Assembly (NCBI GenBank): GCA_947489085.1
Contig: CANLCJ010000035.1
Coordinates: 1-42,479, forward strand
Direction: 5' to 3'
Source of the DNA: an uncultured Flavobacteriaceae bacterium
GTDB lineage: Bacteria; Bacteroidota; Bacteroidia; Flavobacteriales; Flavobacteriaceae
Length of the DNA stretch: 42,479 nucleotides
Shown here: positions 34,822-39,272 of the stretch, piece by piece
Numbering within the stretch: the stretch's first letter is position 1
Layout of the letters: the number at the start of each line of letters is the position of its first letter
The notes under the pieces: model-generated
Told to the model about the DNA's origin: nothing
What the model saw: the letters and a program-made list of their open reading frames with translations, nothing else
Databases searched by the model: none
Position numbers and translations under genes: made by a program

Positions 34822-35958
34822 ATGAAAAAAGTATTATTTATAGATAGAGACGGCACTTTAGTATTAGAGCCACCAGTAGATTACCAGTTGGATAGTTTAG
34901 AAAAATTAGAATTCTATCCAAAAGTATTTCAGTACATGGCTAAAATTGCCGCAGAGCTAGATTACGAATTGGTTATGGTAACCAATCAAGATGGTTTGGG
35001 TACCGATAGCTTTCCAGAAGACACCTTTTGGCCAGCACAAAATAAAGTTATTGATGCTTTTGCAAAAGAAGGCGTAACGTTTTCTGCAGTTCATATCGAT
35101 AAAACGTTTCCTCATGAAAATGCAGACACTCGTAAGCCAAGAACAGGACTGTTAACCCAATATTTTTCTGAAGATTACGATTTAGAAAACTCCTTCGTAT
35201 TAGGCGATCGTATTACCGATATGGAGTTGGCAAAAAATTTAGGCGCAAAAGGTATTTTTTTGTCCGAAGACCCAGAACTTGGGGCAGAAGAGATAGAAGC
35301 CTCTAAGCAAACCATTTTAGACTGTATTGCATTAACAAGTACAGATTGGGCAGAAATCTATGAGTTTTTAAAGTTAAAAGATCGCGTAGCAGAAATTACC
35401 AGAAACACCAATGAAACAAAAATATACATTAAGTTGAATTTGGATGGATCAGGTAAAAACAATATCGATACAGGATTATCATTTTTCAACCACATGTTAG
35501 ACCAAATAGGGCGTCACGGTGCAATGGATTTAACCATTAAAGTTGATGGCGATTTAGAAGTCGATGAGCATCACACCATAGAAGATACTATGATAGCCTT
35601 TGGAGAACTCTTTAATAAAGCCTTAGGCAATAAATTAGGTATAGAACGCTATGGTTTCTGCCTGCCTATGGACGATTGTTTAGCACAAGTTGCAGTAGAT
35701 TTTGGAGGTAGAAATTGGTTAGAATGGGATGCCGAATTTAAGCGTGAAAAAATAGGCGATATGCCAACAGAAATGTTTTACCATCTATTTAAATCCTTTA
35801 CAGATGGTGCAAAATGCAACCTAAACGTAAAAGCAGAAGGCGTAAACGAACATCATAAAATAGAAGGCATATTTAAAGCCTTTGCCAAAGCTATGAAAAT
35901 GGCAGTAAAAAGAGACCCCAATAAGATGTTTTTACCAAGTACAAAAGGTATTCTTTAG
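34822..35958 (+). CDS. hisB: Bifunctional histidinol-phosphatase / imidazoleglycerol-phosphate dehydratase
   Basis: The 378-residue fusion has an N-terminal HAD phosphatase (residues 1-165) with Asp8 and Asp10 in FIDRDGTLV, and a C-terminal IGP dehydratase (about 190-378) with [14 protein letters not shown] and DEHHTIEDT as manganese-site motifs. The zinc loop Cys residues of the E. coli phosphatase domain are absent: the loop reads [11 protein letters not shown]. An in-frame TTG at 34804 would add six residues, but the ATG at 34822 places the HAD motif correctly and was chosen. Confidence 0.94.
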
Positions 35959-36028
35959 TGTATAGTTATAAGGTCATAAGTCCAAAGTGAAAAAGTATCA
36001 AGTAGATAATCTTAAGTAAATAGTAATA
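35957..36028 (+). repeat. Cassette 1 left array: 7-nt phased AGT repeats
   Basis: AGT (or AGG) triplets recur at 35957, 35964, 35971, 35979, 35986, 35994, 36001, 36015 and 36022, so mostly every 7 or 14 bases with two single-base slips. The first lies over the hisB stop. Part of it (35979-35997) is the reverse complement of 36077-36094 except for one bulged base. Confidence 0.75.
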
Positions 36029-36070
36029 AATCTAAATTCAAAGTGTAAATTCTAACTTTTTGTTGAGTTA

Positions 36071-36115
36071 ACTTAGTACTTTTTACTTTGGACTCATTAC
36101 TTAAGACTTAATACG
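36071..36115 (+). repeat. Cassette 1 right array: 7-nt phased ACT repeats
   Basis: ACT occurs at 36071, 36078, 36085, 36092, 36099 and 36106, then ACG at 36113, with a perfect 7-nt period. The units read like the reverse complement of the AGT units to the left. The hisH start is 15 bp downstream. Confidence 0.85.
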
Positions 36116-36129
36116 TATTTAATAGAAAA

Positions 36130-36711
36130 ATGAAACTAATAATCATAAATTACGGTGCAGGAAATATAAAAAGTATCCAATTTGCTTTTAAGCGTTTAGG
36201 TTACGATACTGTTTTATCCAATAATCCAGAGGAGATAAAAGCAGCAGATAAAATCATTTTCCCAGGTGTGGGCGAAGCCAGTTCTGCCATGAAAATGCTC
36301 AAAGAAAGTGGCTTAGATGCGCTAATACCAAAGTTAACCCAACCCGTTTTAGGCATCTGTTTAGGCATGCAATTAATGTGTTTACATACAGAAGAAGGCA
36401 ATACAGAAGGGCTAGGGATATTTCAAACCAAAGTAAAACGTTTTTCAAGTAAGGTTAAAGTACCACAAATGGGTTGGAATGTGATAAAAGATTTAAAGTC
36501 CGATTTGTTTAAAGGGATAAAAGAAAACGAATATATGTATCTCGTACACAGTTTTTATGCCGAACATTGTAAAGAAACCATTGCAGCAACCGATTACGGA
36601 ATAAACTACGCATCGGCATTACAGCATAATAATTTTTATGGCGTACAATTTCACCCAGAGAAAAGCGGTGTTGTGGGGGCTAAGATTTTGGAGAACTTTT
36701 TGAATATCTAA
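36130..36711 (+). CDS. hisH: Imidazole glycerol phosphate synthase, glutaminase subunit
   Basis: The 193-residue class I glutamine amidotransferase supplies ammonia to HisF. The nucleophile is Cys77 in GICLGMQLM, the oxyanion-strand glycines are in PGVGEASSAM, and the His/Glu pair is in VQFHPEKSG near the C-terminus. The length is normal. It lies between repeat cassettes 1 and 2, not directly next to hisA and hisF as in compact operons. Confidence 0.95.
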   Translation: MKLIIINYGAGNIKSIQFAFKRLGYDTVLSNNPEEIKAADKIIFPGVGEASSAMKMLKESGLDALIPKLTQPVLGICLGMQLMCLHTEEGNTEGLGIFQTKVKRFSSKVKVPQMGWNVIKDLKSDLFKGIKENEYMYLVHSFYAEHCKETIAATDYGINYASALQHNNFYGVQFHPEKSGVVGAKILENFLNI

Positions 36712-36720
36712 ACTTTTAAA

Positions 36721-36755
36721 AGTAGTGAGTATAAAGTATTAAGTACAAAGTAAAT
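36721..36755 (+). repeat. Cassette 2 left array: 7-nt phased AGT repeats
   Basis: AGT occurs at 36721, 36728, 36735, 36742 and 36749, an exact 7-nt period. The sequence closely resembles the left array at 38062-38084 (about 20 of 23 bases the same). The four-helix-bundle gene starts 14 bp after the last unit. Confidence 0.85.
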
Positions 36756-36768
36756 TAGGTAAATAGCG

Positions 36769-37116
36769 ATGAATAATTACGAAAATTTAAAAATCTGGCA
36801 AAAGGCAATGCATTTAGTTGAAGAAGTCTATACTCTAGTAAAATCGTTACCCAAAGAAGAAAAATTCGGATTAACATCTCAAATTAAAAGATGTAGCGTT
36901 TCAATTCCCTCAAATATAGCCGAAGGAGCAGGAAGGAATTCAAATAAAGAGTTTAAATATTTTTTGAGTATTGCAAATGGCTCTACTTGCGAATTAGAAA
37001 CACAGATATTATTATCTGCAAGGTTAAAATATACCAAAGAAGAACAAATAAAGCATATTTTGAATTTATGCAATGAGGTTAAAAAAATGAATTTTTCACT
37101 TCAAAAAAGTCTATAG
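36769..37116 (+). CDS. Four-helix-bundle protein, S23/IVP family
   Basis: The 115-residue protein matches the four-helix-bundle family first seen as open frames within 23S rRNA intervening sequences (S23/IVP; related to the Avd protein of diversity-generating retroelements). Recognisable parts are YENLKIWQKAMHL (residues 3-15), LTSQIKRCSVSIPSNIAEGAG (35-55) and SCELETQILLSARL about 73-86. The biochemical role of free-standing members is not known. It is an intruder in the his operon, between hisH and hisA, with AGT repeats before it and a long ACT array after it, in the same direction as the operon. Confidence 0.88.
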   Translation: MNNYENLKIWQKAMHLVEEVYTLVKSLPKEEKFGLTSQIKRCSVSIPSNIAEGAGRNSNKEFKYFLSIANGSTCELETQILLSARLKYTKEEQIKHILNLCNEVKKMNFSLQKSL

Positions 37117-37143
37117 CTTAAAACTATGCATGCAACACCCAAC

Positions 37144-37318
37144 ACTTATTACTTAATACTTATTACTTAATACTTATTACTTATTACTTAATACTTATTA
37201 CTTAATACTTAATACTTATTACTTATTACTTAATACTTATTACTTAATACTTATTACTTAATACTTATTACTTAATACTTATTACTTAATACTTATTACT
37301 TAATACTTTTTACTAAAT
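37144..37318 (+). repeat. Cassette 2 right array: 25 consecutive 7-nt ACT units
   Basis: ACT occurs at every seventh base from 37144 to 37312, 25 times with no slip. Units are ACTTATT or ACTTAAT in mixed order, then ACTTTTT and ACTAAAT at the end. With only seven bases per unit and no spacers it is not a CRISPR. It ends 12 bp before the hisA start. Confidence 0.95.
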
Positions 37319-37330
37319 ACACATAATCAA

Positions 37331-38056
37331 ATGCGACTCATACCAGCAATAGACATCATAGATGGTAAATGCGTACGTCTTTCCAAAGGCGATTACAATA
37401 CCAAAAAAATATACAACGAAAACCCTTTAGAGATTGCCAAGCAATTCGAAGACCACGGTATAGAACATTTACATTTAGTAGATTTAGATGGCGCTAAGGC
37501 AAGCCATATTGTAAATCATAAGGTGTTAGAAACCATAGCAACCAAAACCAATTTAAAAATCGACTTTGGAGGAGGCCTAAAAACTGATGAAGATTTACGT
37601 ATTGCTTTCGAGTCTGGTGCAGGGCAAATAACAGGTGGTAGTATTGCTGTTAAAAACCCAGACGTATTTAAAAGTTGGTTATCTAAATTTGGAGCAGATA
37701 AAATAATATTAGGTGCAGATGCCAATAACGAAAAAATAGCCATTAGTGGGTGGCAAGAAGAATCGGAAGAAGAGTTAATTCCATTTGTAAAAAACTATAT
37801 AGCACAAGGCGTATCGTATGTAATTTGTACAGATATTGCTAAAGACGGCATGTTACAAGGGCCTTCATTTGGTTTATACAAAAAAATGTTAGCAGAATTA
37901 GATGGTGTTAAGTTGATAGCCTCTGGTGGTATTTCAAAATTTGAAGAATTACCAAAACTTGCCGAGCTAGGTTGTGAAGGTACCATAATCGGGAAAGCCA
38001 TTTATGAGAATAAAATAAGTTTAAAGCAGCTTGAAGATTATATATTGAGTAATTAA
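37331..38056 (+). CDS. hisA: ProFAR isomerase
   Basis: The 241-residue TIM-barrel isomerase opens the sugar ring of ProFAR to give PRFAR. Its two half-barrel phosphate sites are visible: [19 protein letters not shown] at the start (Asp8), [11 protein letters not shown] in the first half, and [13 protein letters not shown] with LIASGGISK in the second. The last 48 bases, apart from the stop region, are repeated at 39034-39079. The length is normal, so the gene is intact. Confidence 0.95.
38009..38046 (+). repeat. hisA 3'-end direct repeat, copy 1 (in hisA)
   Basis: These 38 bases are identical to 39042-39079. With two mismatches the match extends left to 38001. The copy is part of the hisA reading frame and is followed by the AGT array at 38062. 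Confidence 0.92.
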
Positions 38057-38061
38057 TCTCT

Positions 38062-38085
38062 AGTAGTTAGTATAAAGTATCCAGA
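38062..38085 (+). repeat. Cassette 3 first left array: AGT repeats
   Basis: AGT occurs at 38062, 38069 and 38076, and AGA at 38083, with a 7-nt period. The array runs directly into the ATG of the VOC-transglutaminase-like gene at 38086 and closely resembles the cassette 2 left array. Confidence 0.75.
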
Positions 38086-39006
38086 ATGACGTTCCGTTAC
38101 GCCAGACATACAACAAATTTAAAACGCATATCGGCATTCTATTGCAAATATGTTGGGCTAGAGAATCTAGGCGGTTTTGAGGATCACGATGGGTATAACG
38201 GTTTATTTTTAGGAAATAAGAACAATAATTGGCATTTAGAGTTTACAACTTCAAAAGAAATGCCCACTAGTAAGTTTGATCCTGACGATGTCCTTGTGTT
38301 TTATGTTACCTCAGAGGTTGAATTATCGCGTTTAAAAGAAATATTGATAAAGGATAAAATACCATTAGAAACACCTAAAAATCCATATTGGTCAAAATAT
38401 GGGATTATGATCTATGATCCTGATGGATATCAAATTGTGTTTTCTGTTAAAACGCAGCAATTGCATTCAAATGATGAATTAACACGTTTGGCAGTCGACA
38501 TGGGGCTTGAAGATTGGAATGCATTAATTGAGTATGTTAAACAAATACCTTACGGTAGAAATTCTAATAGATTTGATGTCTCATTAGTTGTAAAAGAAAA
38601 TAAAGGGACATGCAGTTCAAAACATGCCTTTTTAAAATCTATTGCCAAATTAAATGGTTTACAAGATGTAAAATTAATTTTAGGAATTTATAAAATGAAT
38701 CATTTAAATACACCAAAAACAGGCCGTATTATTGAAGATAATGGATTAAATTACCTACCAGAAGCGCATTGTTATTTAAATATTAACAACAGACGTATAG
38801 ATATAACAAGTTCTAGTGCGCGTATAGGAAATTTAGAGAAGGATATTTTAGAAGAAATAGAAATAGAACCAAGCCAAGTTGTCGATTTTAAAATAGCTTA
38901 CCATAAGCAGTATTTAAAACAATGGTGTAAAAAGGAATCTATAGATATGCCATTTGATGTGATATGGAATTTAAGAGAACAATGCATTAAAAAACTATCC
39001 ATCTAA
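38086..39006 (+). CDS. VOC domain fused to a transglutaminase-like domain
   Basis: The 306-residue protein has two parts. Residues 1-122 are a vicinal oxygen chelate (glyoxalase-fold) domain: RHTTNLKRISAFYCKYVGL with His8, WHLEFT with His50, and DPDGYQIVF (111-119). Residues about 130-306 hold a spaced Cys-His-Asp set, Cys176 in GTCSSKH, His228 in EAHCYLN and Asp239 in RRIDIT, the order and spacing seen in transglutaminase-like cysteine enzymes. This second assignment is from pattern only. The gene is not a his gene and is enclosed by a duplicated hisA 3' end and AGT arrays, so it looks like inserted cargo. Confidence 0.7.
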   Translation: MTFRYARHTTNLKRISAFYCKYVGLENLGGFEDHDGYNGLFLGNKNNNWHLEFTTSKEMPTSKFDPDDVLVFYVTSEVELSRLKEILIKDKIPLETPKNPYWSKYGIMIYDPDGYQIVFSVKTQQLHSNDELTRLAVDMGLEDWNALIEYVKQIPYGRNSNRFDVSLVVKENKGTCSSKHAFLKSIAKLNGLQDVKLILGIYKMNHLNTPKTGRIIEDNGLNYLPEAHCYLNINNRRIDITSSSARIGNLEKDILEEIEIEPSQVVDFKIAYHKQYLKQWCKKESIDMPFDVIWNLREQCIKKLSI

Positions 39007-39041
39007 AAACGATAAATAAATAATGAAGAGCGGTTTATAAA

Positions 39042-39079
39042 AATAAAATAAGTTTAAAGCAGCTTGAAGATTATATATT
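39042..39079 (+). repeat. hisA 3'-end direct repeat, copy 2
   Basis: This is an exact copy of 38009-38046, 1033 bp downstream, outside any gene. It is followed at once by a second AGT array. It marks the right boundary of the inserted VOC-transglutaminase segment. Confidence 0.92.
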
Positions 39080-39087
39080 AATTACTT

Positions 39088-39140
39088 AGTATCAAGTATC
39101 AAGTATCAAGTATCAAGTATCAAGTATACAGTAAACAGCC
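39088..39140 (+). repeat. Cassette 3 second left array: AGTATCA heptamers
   Basis: AGT occurs at 39088, 39095, 39102, 39109, 39116, 39123 and 39130 (and AGC at 39137), an exact 7-nt period. The first five units are AGTATCA. It follows the hisA 3'-end copy, as the AGT array at 38062 follows hisA itself. Confidence 0.92.
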
Positions 39141-39142
39141 AT

Positions 39143-39197
39143 TGGTATAACGTGTTTTAAAAAGATGAATAAAGCATTACAAAAAAAGTTTATACCA
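39143..39197. repeat. Core of cassette 3 with 8-bp inverted ends
   Basis: The short segment between the AGT and ACT arrays is bounded by TGGTATAA (39143-39150) and TTATACCA (39190-39197). It holds no gene. It may be what remains of a lost cargo or the basic form of the element. Confidence 0.5.
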
Positions 39198-39252
39198 CTA
39201 AATACTTAATACTAACTACTGATTACTAATCACTAACTACTAGATACTAATT
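39197..39252 (+). repeat. Cassette 3 right array: 7-nt phased ACT repeats
   Basis: ACT occurs at 39197, 39204, 39211, 39218, 39225, 39232, 39239 and 39246 with no slip, then ACC at 39253. Units vary more than in cassette 2 (ACTAACT, ACTGATT, ACTAATC, ACTAGAT). hisF starts 20 bp downstream. Confidence 0.9.
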
Positions 39253-39272
39253 ACCAAAAAACACAAAAAAAC

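Follow-up and report, generated by a model that had tools for sequence, protein, structure and literature searches.

Described intervening sequences and heptamer repeats

The intervening sequence (IVS) in helix 45 of the Coxiella 23S rRNA carries an S23p open reading frame (ORF), measures 428 nt and is closed by a terminal stem of 28 bp. The ORF is immediately preceded by two or three heptamers, and RNase III cuts at the first repeat. The authors consider S23p of Coxiella to be probably not produced in vivo. IVP ('four helix bundle') genes are described in the same account as having no known function; a solved IVP protein is a pentamer of four-helix bundles (excerpts of PMC4990558). The family PF05635 resembles Avd of diversity-generating retroelements (DGR) (excerpt of PMC10053308). 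In a stretch of 42,479 nt from an uncultured Flavobacteriaceae bacterium (assembly GCA_947489085.1, contig CANLCJ010000035.1, positions 1 to 42,479; hereafter the window), an IVP gene lies between hisH and hisA amid 7-nt arrays, and related arrays occupy the hisB-hisH and hisA-hisF gaps. These three gaps probably contain intervening-sequence-like elements between protein genes, whose RNA stem-loop would be cut by RNase III and which would persist mainly as selfish inserts.

The short tandemly repeated repetitive sequences (STRRs) of cyanobacteria are heptamer tandem repeats. TAACTGA heptamers occur in Beggiatoaceae, cyanobacteria and five Bacteroidetes. MacGregor reported that close relatives of two Bacteroidetes species have shorter gaps with no obvious repeats (excerpts of PMC4679880). 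GGGAATC and GGGGA(T/C)T heptamers are found in Xanthomonas and Nostoc, and the GGGAATC arrays of Xanthomonas form convergent inverted pairs in 70 and 75 cases (excerpts of PMC4692102). The excerpts of both papers discuss the repeats as translational regulation, gene rearrangement or G-quadruplexes, not as element arms; the terms 'S23' and 'four helix' are absent from their main texts. The arrays of the operon elements share with heptamer tandem repeats, as far as the excerpts describe these, the head-to-tail period of 7, the mostly intergenic position and the variable unit.

REPIN/RAYT systems are small elements combining inverted ends or hairpins with repeats. The same combination is found in BrickBuilt of Porphyromonas gingivalis, a miniature inverted-repeat transposable element (MITE) with an internal minisatellite of 23-nt units (excerpts of PMC4596501). 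The operon elements differ from BrickBuilt, as excerpted, in that their arms are the period-7 arrays themselves and their gene is IVP; target duplications are not established for them. The terms 'heptamer', 'S23' and 'four helix' are absent from the main text of PMC4596501. A literature search that mostly did not cover subscription journals found no paper that connects IVP genes with heptad arrays between genes, which does not prove that none exists. An earlier sequence-only reading of the window had stated that no element of this form was described. This was too strong, as one rRNA IVS with heptamers (PMC4990558) and the convergent inverted pairs of Xanthomonas (PMC4692102) are in print, judging by the excerpts.

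Probable elements in three gaps of the his operon

The hisH-hisA gap appears to contain the full form. There, 7-nt arrays with AGT on the 5' side and ACT on the 3' side make up the arms of a long inverted repeat, and the IVP gene occupies its loop. The hisB-hisH and hisA-hisF gaps, as well as an argD-proA gap elsewhere in the genome, seem to contain IVP-less versions made of arms and a short loop. The parts are as follows.

35957..36004, + strand: 5' arm of the IVP-less hisB-hisH hairpin, AGT-type, phase broken by slips (sequence reading)
36071..36108, + strand: 3' arm of the hairpin between hisB and hisH, ACT x6 with period 7 (run count)
36721..36755, + strand: 5' arm of the element between hisH and hisA, (AGTNNNN) x5, a run of 5 AGT at period 7
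36769..37116, + strand: IVP gene for a 115-aa protein of the 23S_rRNA_IVP family, situated in the loop that the arms enclose (PF05635, E 2.9e-42, 143.7 bits, cut-off 33.8)
37144..37314, + strand: 3' arm of the element between hisH and hisA, ACT x25 with period 7 (run count; predicted fold)
39088..39132, + strand: 5' arm of the IVP-less hisA-hisF hairpin, AGT x7 (run count; fold)
39197..39248, + strand: 3' arm of the hairpin between hisA and hisF, ACT x8 with period 7 (run count)

The arrays noted in the sequence-only reading are present, and far above chance: the pattern AGTNNNN x4 has 36 matches in the window, overlapping registers counted, and is absent from all 100 dinucleotide-preserving shuffles. 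Period-7 runs of AGT or ACT with at least three units are confined, within the 42-kb window, to the hisB-hisH, hisH-hisA and hisA-hisF gaps. AGT runs start at 36721 (5 units), 38062 (3) and 39088 (7), ACT runs at 36071 (6), 37144 (25) and 39197 (8). The same polarity, AGT left and ACT right, was correctly read in 3/3 gaps. Exact phase is limited to the arms other than the left one of hisB-hisH, because in this arm (35957-36004) the recurring AGT slips by single bases and is once replaced by AGG, so that no run of three was found. The longest array does reach the 25 units noted earlier, but it consists mostly of two alternating heptads, which makes a repeat unit of 14 nt (95% matches).

The draft genome as a whole (135 contigs, 3.65 Mb) has 38 matches to AGTNNNN x5 and 1 to the pattern read backward. 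The 38 matches all lie in the his gaps or at C13:11357-11429. The latter site is flanked by two genes that Pfam assigns to Aminotran_3 and Aldedh; by sequence and gene neighbourhood they are read as argD and proA.

The predicted fold of the 619-nt hisH-hisA gap has a z of -3.77 against 20 shuffles; the 25-ACT arm is partly paired with the 5' arm in it, and the remainder is folded on itself. For 35956-36105, the folding prediction pairs the two hisB-hisH arms (z -3.04; 1/200 shuffles equally good). In the hisA-hisF gap, the fold of 39109-39256 reaches z -3.22 with 0/200 shuffles equally good, and that of 39080-39229 is weaker (z -1.92; 8/200). The three gaps differ in content: an IVP gene in hisH-hisA, a VOC gene and a partial hisA copy in hisA-hisF, and no ORF of at least 80 aa in hisB-hisH.

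The window copy resembles the 23S rRNA IVS in the S23p/IVP ORF within the loop (PF05635 score listed above) and in the complementary termini around this ORF, seen in the arm complementarity and in the hisH-hisA fold. As far as the Coxiella IVS is described in the excerpts, tandem heptamers directly 5' of the ORF and a similar size (428 nt versus 428-604 nt for IVP-filled fadB-fadA gaps) are further likenesses. In contrast to the rRNA insertions, the operon elements sit between protein genes, in the window between hisH and hisA. Unlike the Coxiella IVS as excerpted, they have heptads on both sides with fixed polarity, occur in IVP-less forms and often belong to genomes with several IVP genes, and their IVP is under purifying selection. 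Relatives of the window protein with solved structure are 2gsc and 2rld. The protein differs from DGR Avd in scoring below the bAvd cut-off (PF22296, 35.3 vs 40 bits).

Period-7 arms around IVP genes

IVP loci were collected as the best 80 of at least 585 related stretches from 84,980 species genomes, a sample biased to close relatives. Runs of at least three AGT units occur in the upstream 400 nt of 21 loci, and such ACT runs in 2. Downstream, the order is inverted, with ACT runs in 24 and AGT runs in 1 (400 nt). Among 144 control windows placed 2 kb from the IVP loci, one had AGT runs and none ACT runs. A second repeat class has AGA upstream (19 of the 80 loci) and TCT downstream (22).

A second set of 29 further loci gave 109 in total. 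Thirteen were dropped for lack of an in-frame ATG or for a short flank, and 18 of the other 96 were collapsed as near-duplicates, leaving 78 non-redundant loci. In their 70-nt flanks (upstream/downstream), self-identity stands out at lag 7 (.446/.422) and lag 14 (.416/.391), against.26-.31 for the remaining lags between 2 and 15. Lag-7 identity at 203 control genes of the same loci is.312/.309. Among lags 3-13, lag 7 ranks first in one or both flanks of 65/78 loci. Seventeen loci whose record titles are not Bacteroidota reach.439/.416, but most of these records are metagenome-assembled genomes (MAGs) and misbinning is possible. Ten plasmid loci, from 10 of 29 records with matches, all cyanobacterial and picked among the longer matches, give.503/.538, and one of the ten shows no heptads by eye. 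At three cyanobacterial plasmid loci the IVP gene lies between CRISPR genes (cas6-cas4, cmr2-cmr3), where it could be mistaken for a CRISPR component. The triplet varies by lineage, with AGT and AGA types counted and AGC and GGGA types seen by eye.

The IVP gene is thus regularly part of the element according to the run counts and the lag analysis, and not the tolerated or replaceable cargo assumed in the sequence-only reading. GIY-YIG genes were considered as a second kind of gene sharing the same arms. Of 30 such loci 16 single-domain ones were kept (14 were multi-domain, without in-frame ATG or too near an end), and their flanks have no period 7 (.281/.256), which rules out shared arms at these 16 loci. 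Their arm complementarity is slightly raised (16.6 vs 13.3), and GIY-YIG genes near palindromes may represent a parallel system. The hisH-hisA gap of another genome contains a 91-residue open stretch resembling a GIY-YIG protein beside a different short palindrome.

IVP genes are present in 113/149 genomes of the family, with up to 16 matches in one genome. They are under purifying selection (median dN/dS 0.16, maximum 0.34, from 90 non-independent pairs with shared sequences).

The two arms of a locus match each other. Local complementarity between upstream and downstream flanks averages 24.4 within the 78 loci, compared with 14.4 for permuted partners (sd 0.47, maximum 16.7; 5000 permutations) and 13.9 for control genes. 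Permutation within classes gave 25.2 vs 16.2 for the AGT class (22 loci including the window) and 27.6 vs 18.7 for the AGA class (17 loci), each with 0/5000 permutations as high. The match exceeds what the shared triplet provides, so the variable bases of paired arms tend to agree. What is kept is therefore more than period and triplet, to which the sequence-only reading had reduced it.

Polarity is fixed beyond the window. Short-loop hairpins with AGT left and ACT right were found in 53 of the 149 family genomes, those of reverse order in 5. Summed matches are 195 vs 8, but the genome count is the sounder one because a single array yields several overlapping matches. Complementarity alone would equally permit ACT left and AGT right. 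The 53 vs 5 ratio suggests that the G-bearing side as 5' arm is either read by something or fixed by descent.

Empty, IVP-less and IVP-filled gaps

Orthologous gaps are observed in three states. The his region of ten congeners contains no IVP or VOC gene detectable by tblastn, and hisA and hisF nearly abut in 5/10. Other congener his gaps, inspected by eye, contain heptad hairpins of AGC/GCT and AGT/GGT classes, unrelated palindromes or other genes. Palindromic fillers of the types GTCATTCCGC..GCAGGAATGAC and CCCCTCCC..GGGGAGG were seen by eye in five congener his gaps and four fadB-fadA gaps.

The argD-proA gap measures 185 nt in the genome of the window and 15-51 nt in 7/11 congeners. Two further congeners have gaps of 64 and 70 nt, and two have other sequence of 465 and 542 nt. 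One gap of the 64/70-nt pair contains a one-sided ACT array without left arm.

The fadB-fadA gap was fetched for 60 of 104 matching genomes of the family; two lacked a recognisable fadB end, leaving 58. It spans 3-31 nt in 22 genomes, 58-137 nt in 21 and at least 200 nt in 15. An IVP gene fills 14 of these 15 (428-604 nt), and the remaining gap, of 205 nt, has none. Lag-7 identity is at least.48 in 11 of the 21 IVP-less inserts.

AGT hairpins were found in 50/113 genomes with IVP and in 3/36 without (Fisher p 4.5e-5, kinship ignored). The best two IVP relatives listed, from which very near genomes are perhaps omitted, have 72 and 70% identity and belong to Wenyingzhuangia gilva and an uncultured Flavobacteriaceae MAG. 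Both genes stand before hisA, behind a HisH-like C-terminus, so the hisH-hisA site is old or shared by exchange. Target duplications are unreadable as empty and filled gaps are too different, and no fixed terminal sequence was seen by eye at the IVP loci.

These empty and filled orthologous sites (his, argD-proA, fadB-fadA) and the polarity bear out the earlier proposal of elements with inverted, polarised ends inserted between operon genes. The opposite picture named in the sequence-only reading, heptamers scattered with no polarity and no empty/filled difference, was not found. Simple satellites, in which polymerase slippage expands 7-nt units and no element exists, are very improbable. They would suit the near-perfect 25-unit array, and a slippage hypothesis for heptamers is cited in PMC4692102 (excerpt). 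Paired inverted arms of a single polarity, the arm match within loci, the IVP gene between the arms and the empty and filled sites contradict them, and they were rejected on polarity, arm matching and the IVP tie. Slippage probably tunes array length.

The TRAP protein reads spaced triplets. The heptads might likewise be a binding register that serves the host, with IVP as a local regulator of operon expression through pairing leader and trailer. The kept triplet and spacing amid variable bases and the fixed polarity would fit, as does the orientation of the upstream neighbour, which is codirectional at 73/74 IVP loci and in 244/331 adjacent control pairs (ORF rules slightly different). Yet the gaps holding elements (his, fad, arg/pro, nrd, cas6-cas4, cmr2-cmr3) share no common pathway. 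Moreover, relatives often have nothing inserted at the orthologous site, and conserved regulation is therefore not apparent. A regulatory role of this kind is improbable, if less so than mere satellites.

Proposed mechanism and points against it

On the proposed reading as intervening-sequence-like elements, the element would be transcribed together with its operon and the arms would pair into a stem-loop in the mRNA. RNase III may then cut the stem as in the 23S rRNA IVS, and the flanking genes would stay translatable. The stem-loop and its cutting are assumed for the operon elements because their anatomy matches the Coxiella IVS. A selfish insert could survive in operon gaps, because coding is unbroken there. 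The Avd-like IVP protein is a candidate for binding the heptads and may drive the spread of the element, as suggested by the place of IVP, its conservation and its likeness to Avd. The IVP-less forms would derive from IVP elements.

Several observations weigh against this account. Arm mismatches are G-U in 52 and A-C in 64 cases (58/78 loci with an arm alignment). Selection on the transcript, sought in this asymmetry, gave no signal, and without G-U excess there is no support for an RNA-only stem. A lag-7 peak is missing from both flanks in 13/78 IVP loci. Lag-7 identity is below.48 in 10/21 IVP-less fadB-fadA inserts, so other kinds of insert occupy the same gap. The AGT short-loop hairpin is missing in 63/113 family genomes with IVP and present in 3 without. 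In 3/10 cyanobacterial plasmid loci the IVP gene is antisense to both neighbours, which would be unexpected if insertion were purely mRNA-borne. None of the 109 IVP loci contains a large-subunit (LSU) rRNA motif, in a motif search without positive control; location inside rRNA was thus not seen among the sampled loci, and the link to rRNA IVSs depends on the literature. According to excerpts of Rehm et al. (PMC4692102), the heptamers of Xanthomonas and Nostoc in general show no association with mobile elements, and most of them are flanked by the same genes in two Xanthomonas species. The VOC gene of the hisA-hisF gap is not explained by an IVP element.

Some of these points favour hairpins acting at the DNA level. 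Such hairpins, similar to MITEs or repetitive extragenic palindromes (REP), would move by means of an unknown transposase or through errors in replication, IVP being a frequent passenger or a binder and RNA processing playing no part. The lack of a G-U excess, the antisense genes on plasmids and the commonness of IVP-less inserts agree with this, and the same gaps are also filled by other palindromes, GTCATTCC..GGAATGAC and CCCCTCC..GGGG by eye. Period-7 arms are strongly tied to IVP genes, a link unseen at the 16 GIY-YIG genes, and IVP is under purifying selection; both argue against DNA-level hairpins. A DNA-level origin is rather unlikely, yet more probable than regulation or slippage.

Scattered heptamer repeats and the IVP family

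The finding itself is an element that resembles an IVS but lies outside rRNA; the bold case would bring heptamer repeats together under one account. In this bolder version, the scattered 7-nt repeats (cyanobacterial STRRs, Xanthomonas GGGAATC, Beggiatoa TAACTGA and Bacteroidetes AGT/AGA) would be arms of one superfamily of IVP elements, and the rRNA IVSs its rRNA-inserted members. IVP would read the arms in a polarised 7-nt register, and the sequence may drift while the arms match. This extension is tentative and stands somewhat short of an even chance; it is weakened by the general absence of mobile-element association seen by Rehm et al. (excerpts of PMC4692102).

Heptamer repeats have been reported repeatedly and their cause is unsettled, so the IVP link offers a candidate origin. 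IVP in turn gains a candidate ligand in the heptad arms. If the IVP-heptad tie holds, IVSs are no longer a mere rRNA curiosity, and heptad-armed IVP elements would link the old puzzle of 7-base repeats with a little-understood selfish element. For annotators, many operon gaps, at least in Flavobacteriaceae, contain insert hairpins that could be mistaken for regulators.

Other features of the hisA-hisF gap and the draft genome

Three further features precede the hisA-hisF hairpin.

38062..38078, + strand: AGT x3 in the hisA-hisF gap, just upstream of the VOC gene (run count)
38086..39006, + strand: YycE-like (VOC) gene, inserted between hisA and hisF (PF22658, PF22659)
39027..39086, + strand: diverged duplicate of the hisA 3' end (translation compared with the C-terminus of the window's hisA)

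The YycE-like VOC gene occurs in 1/12 genomes of the genus, namely that of the window, and VOC as regular cargo is unsupported. The hisA duplicate behind it (39027-39086) corresponds to 37998-38056. By its sequence, it looks like the scar of a recombination with a foreign hisA allele at the hisA-hisF gap; a donor was not found by eye among the 10 congeners and 2 other species. Elsewhere in the draft genome, a degenerate IVP match with two in-frame TAG codons lies at C4:40436-40642, directly behind a MoaE gene. The ORF that follows this copy is read as MoaC/MoaB-like.

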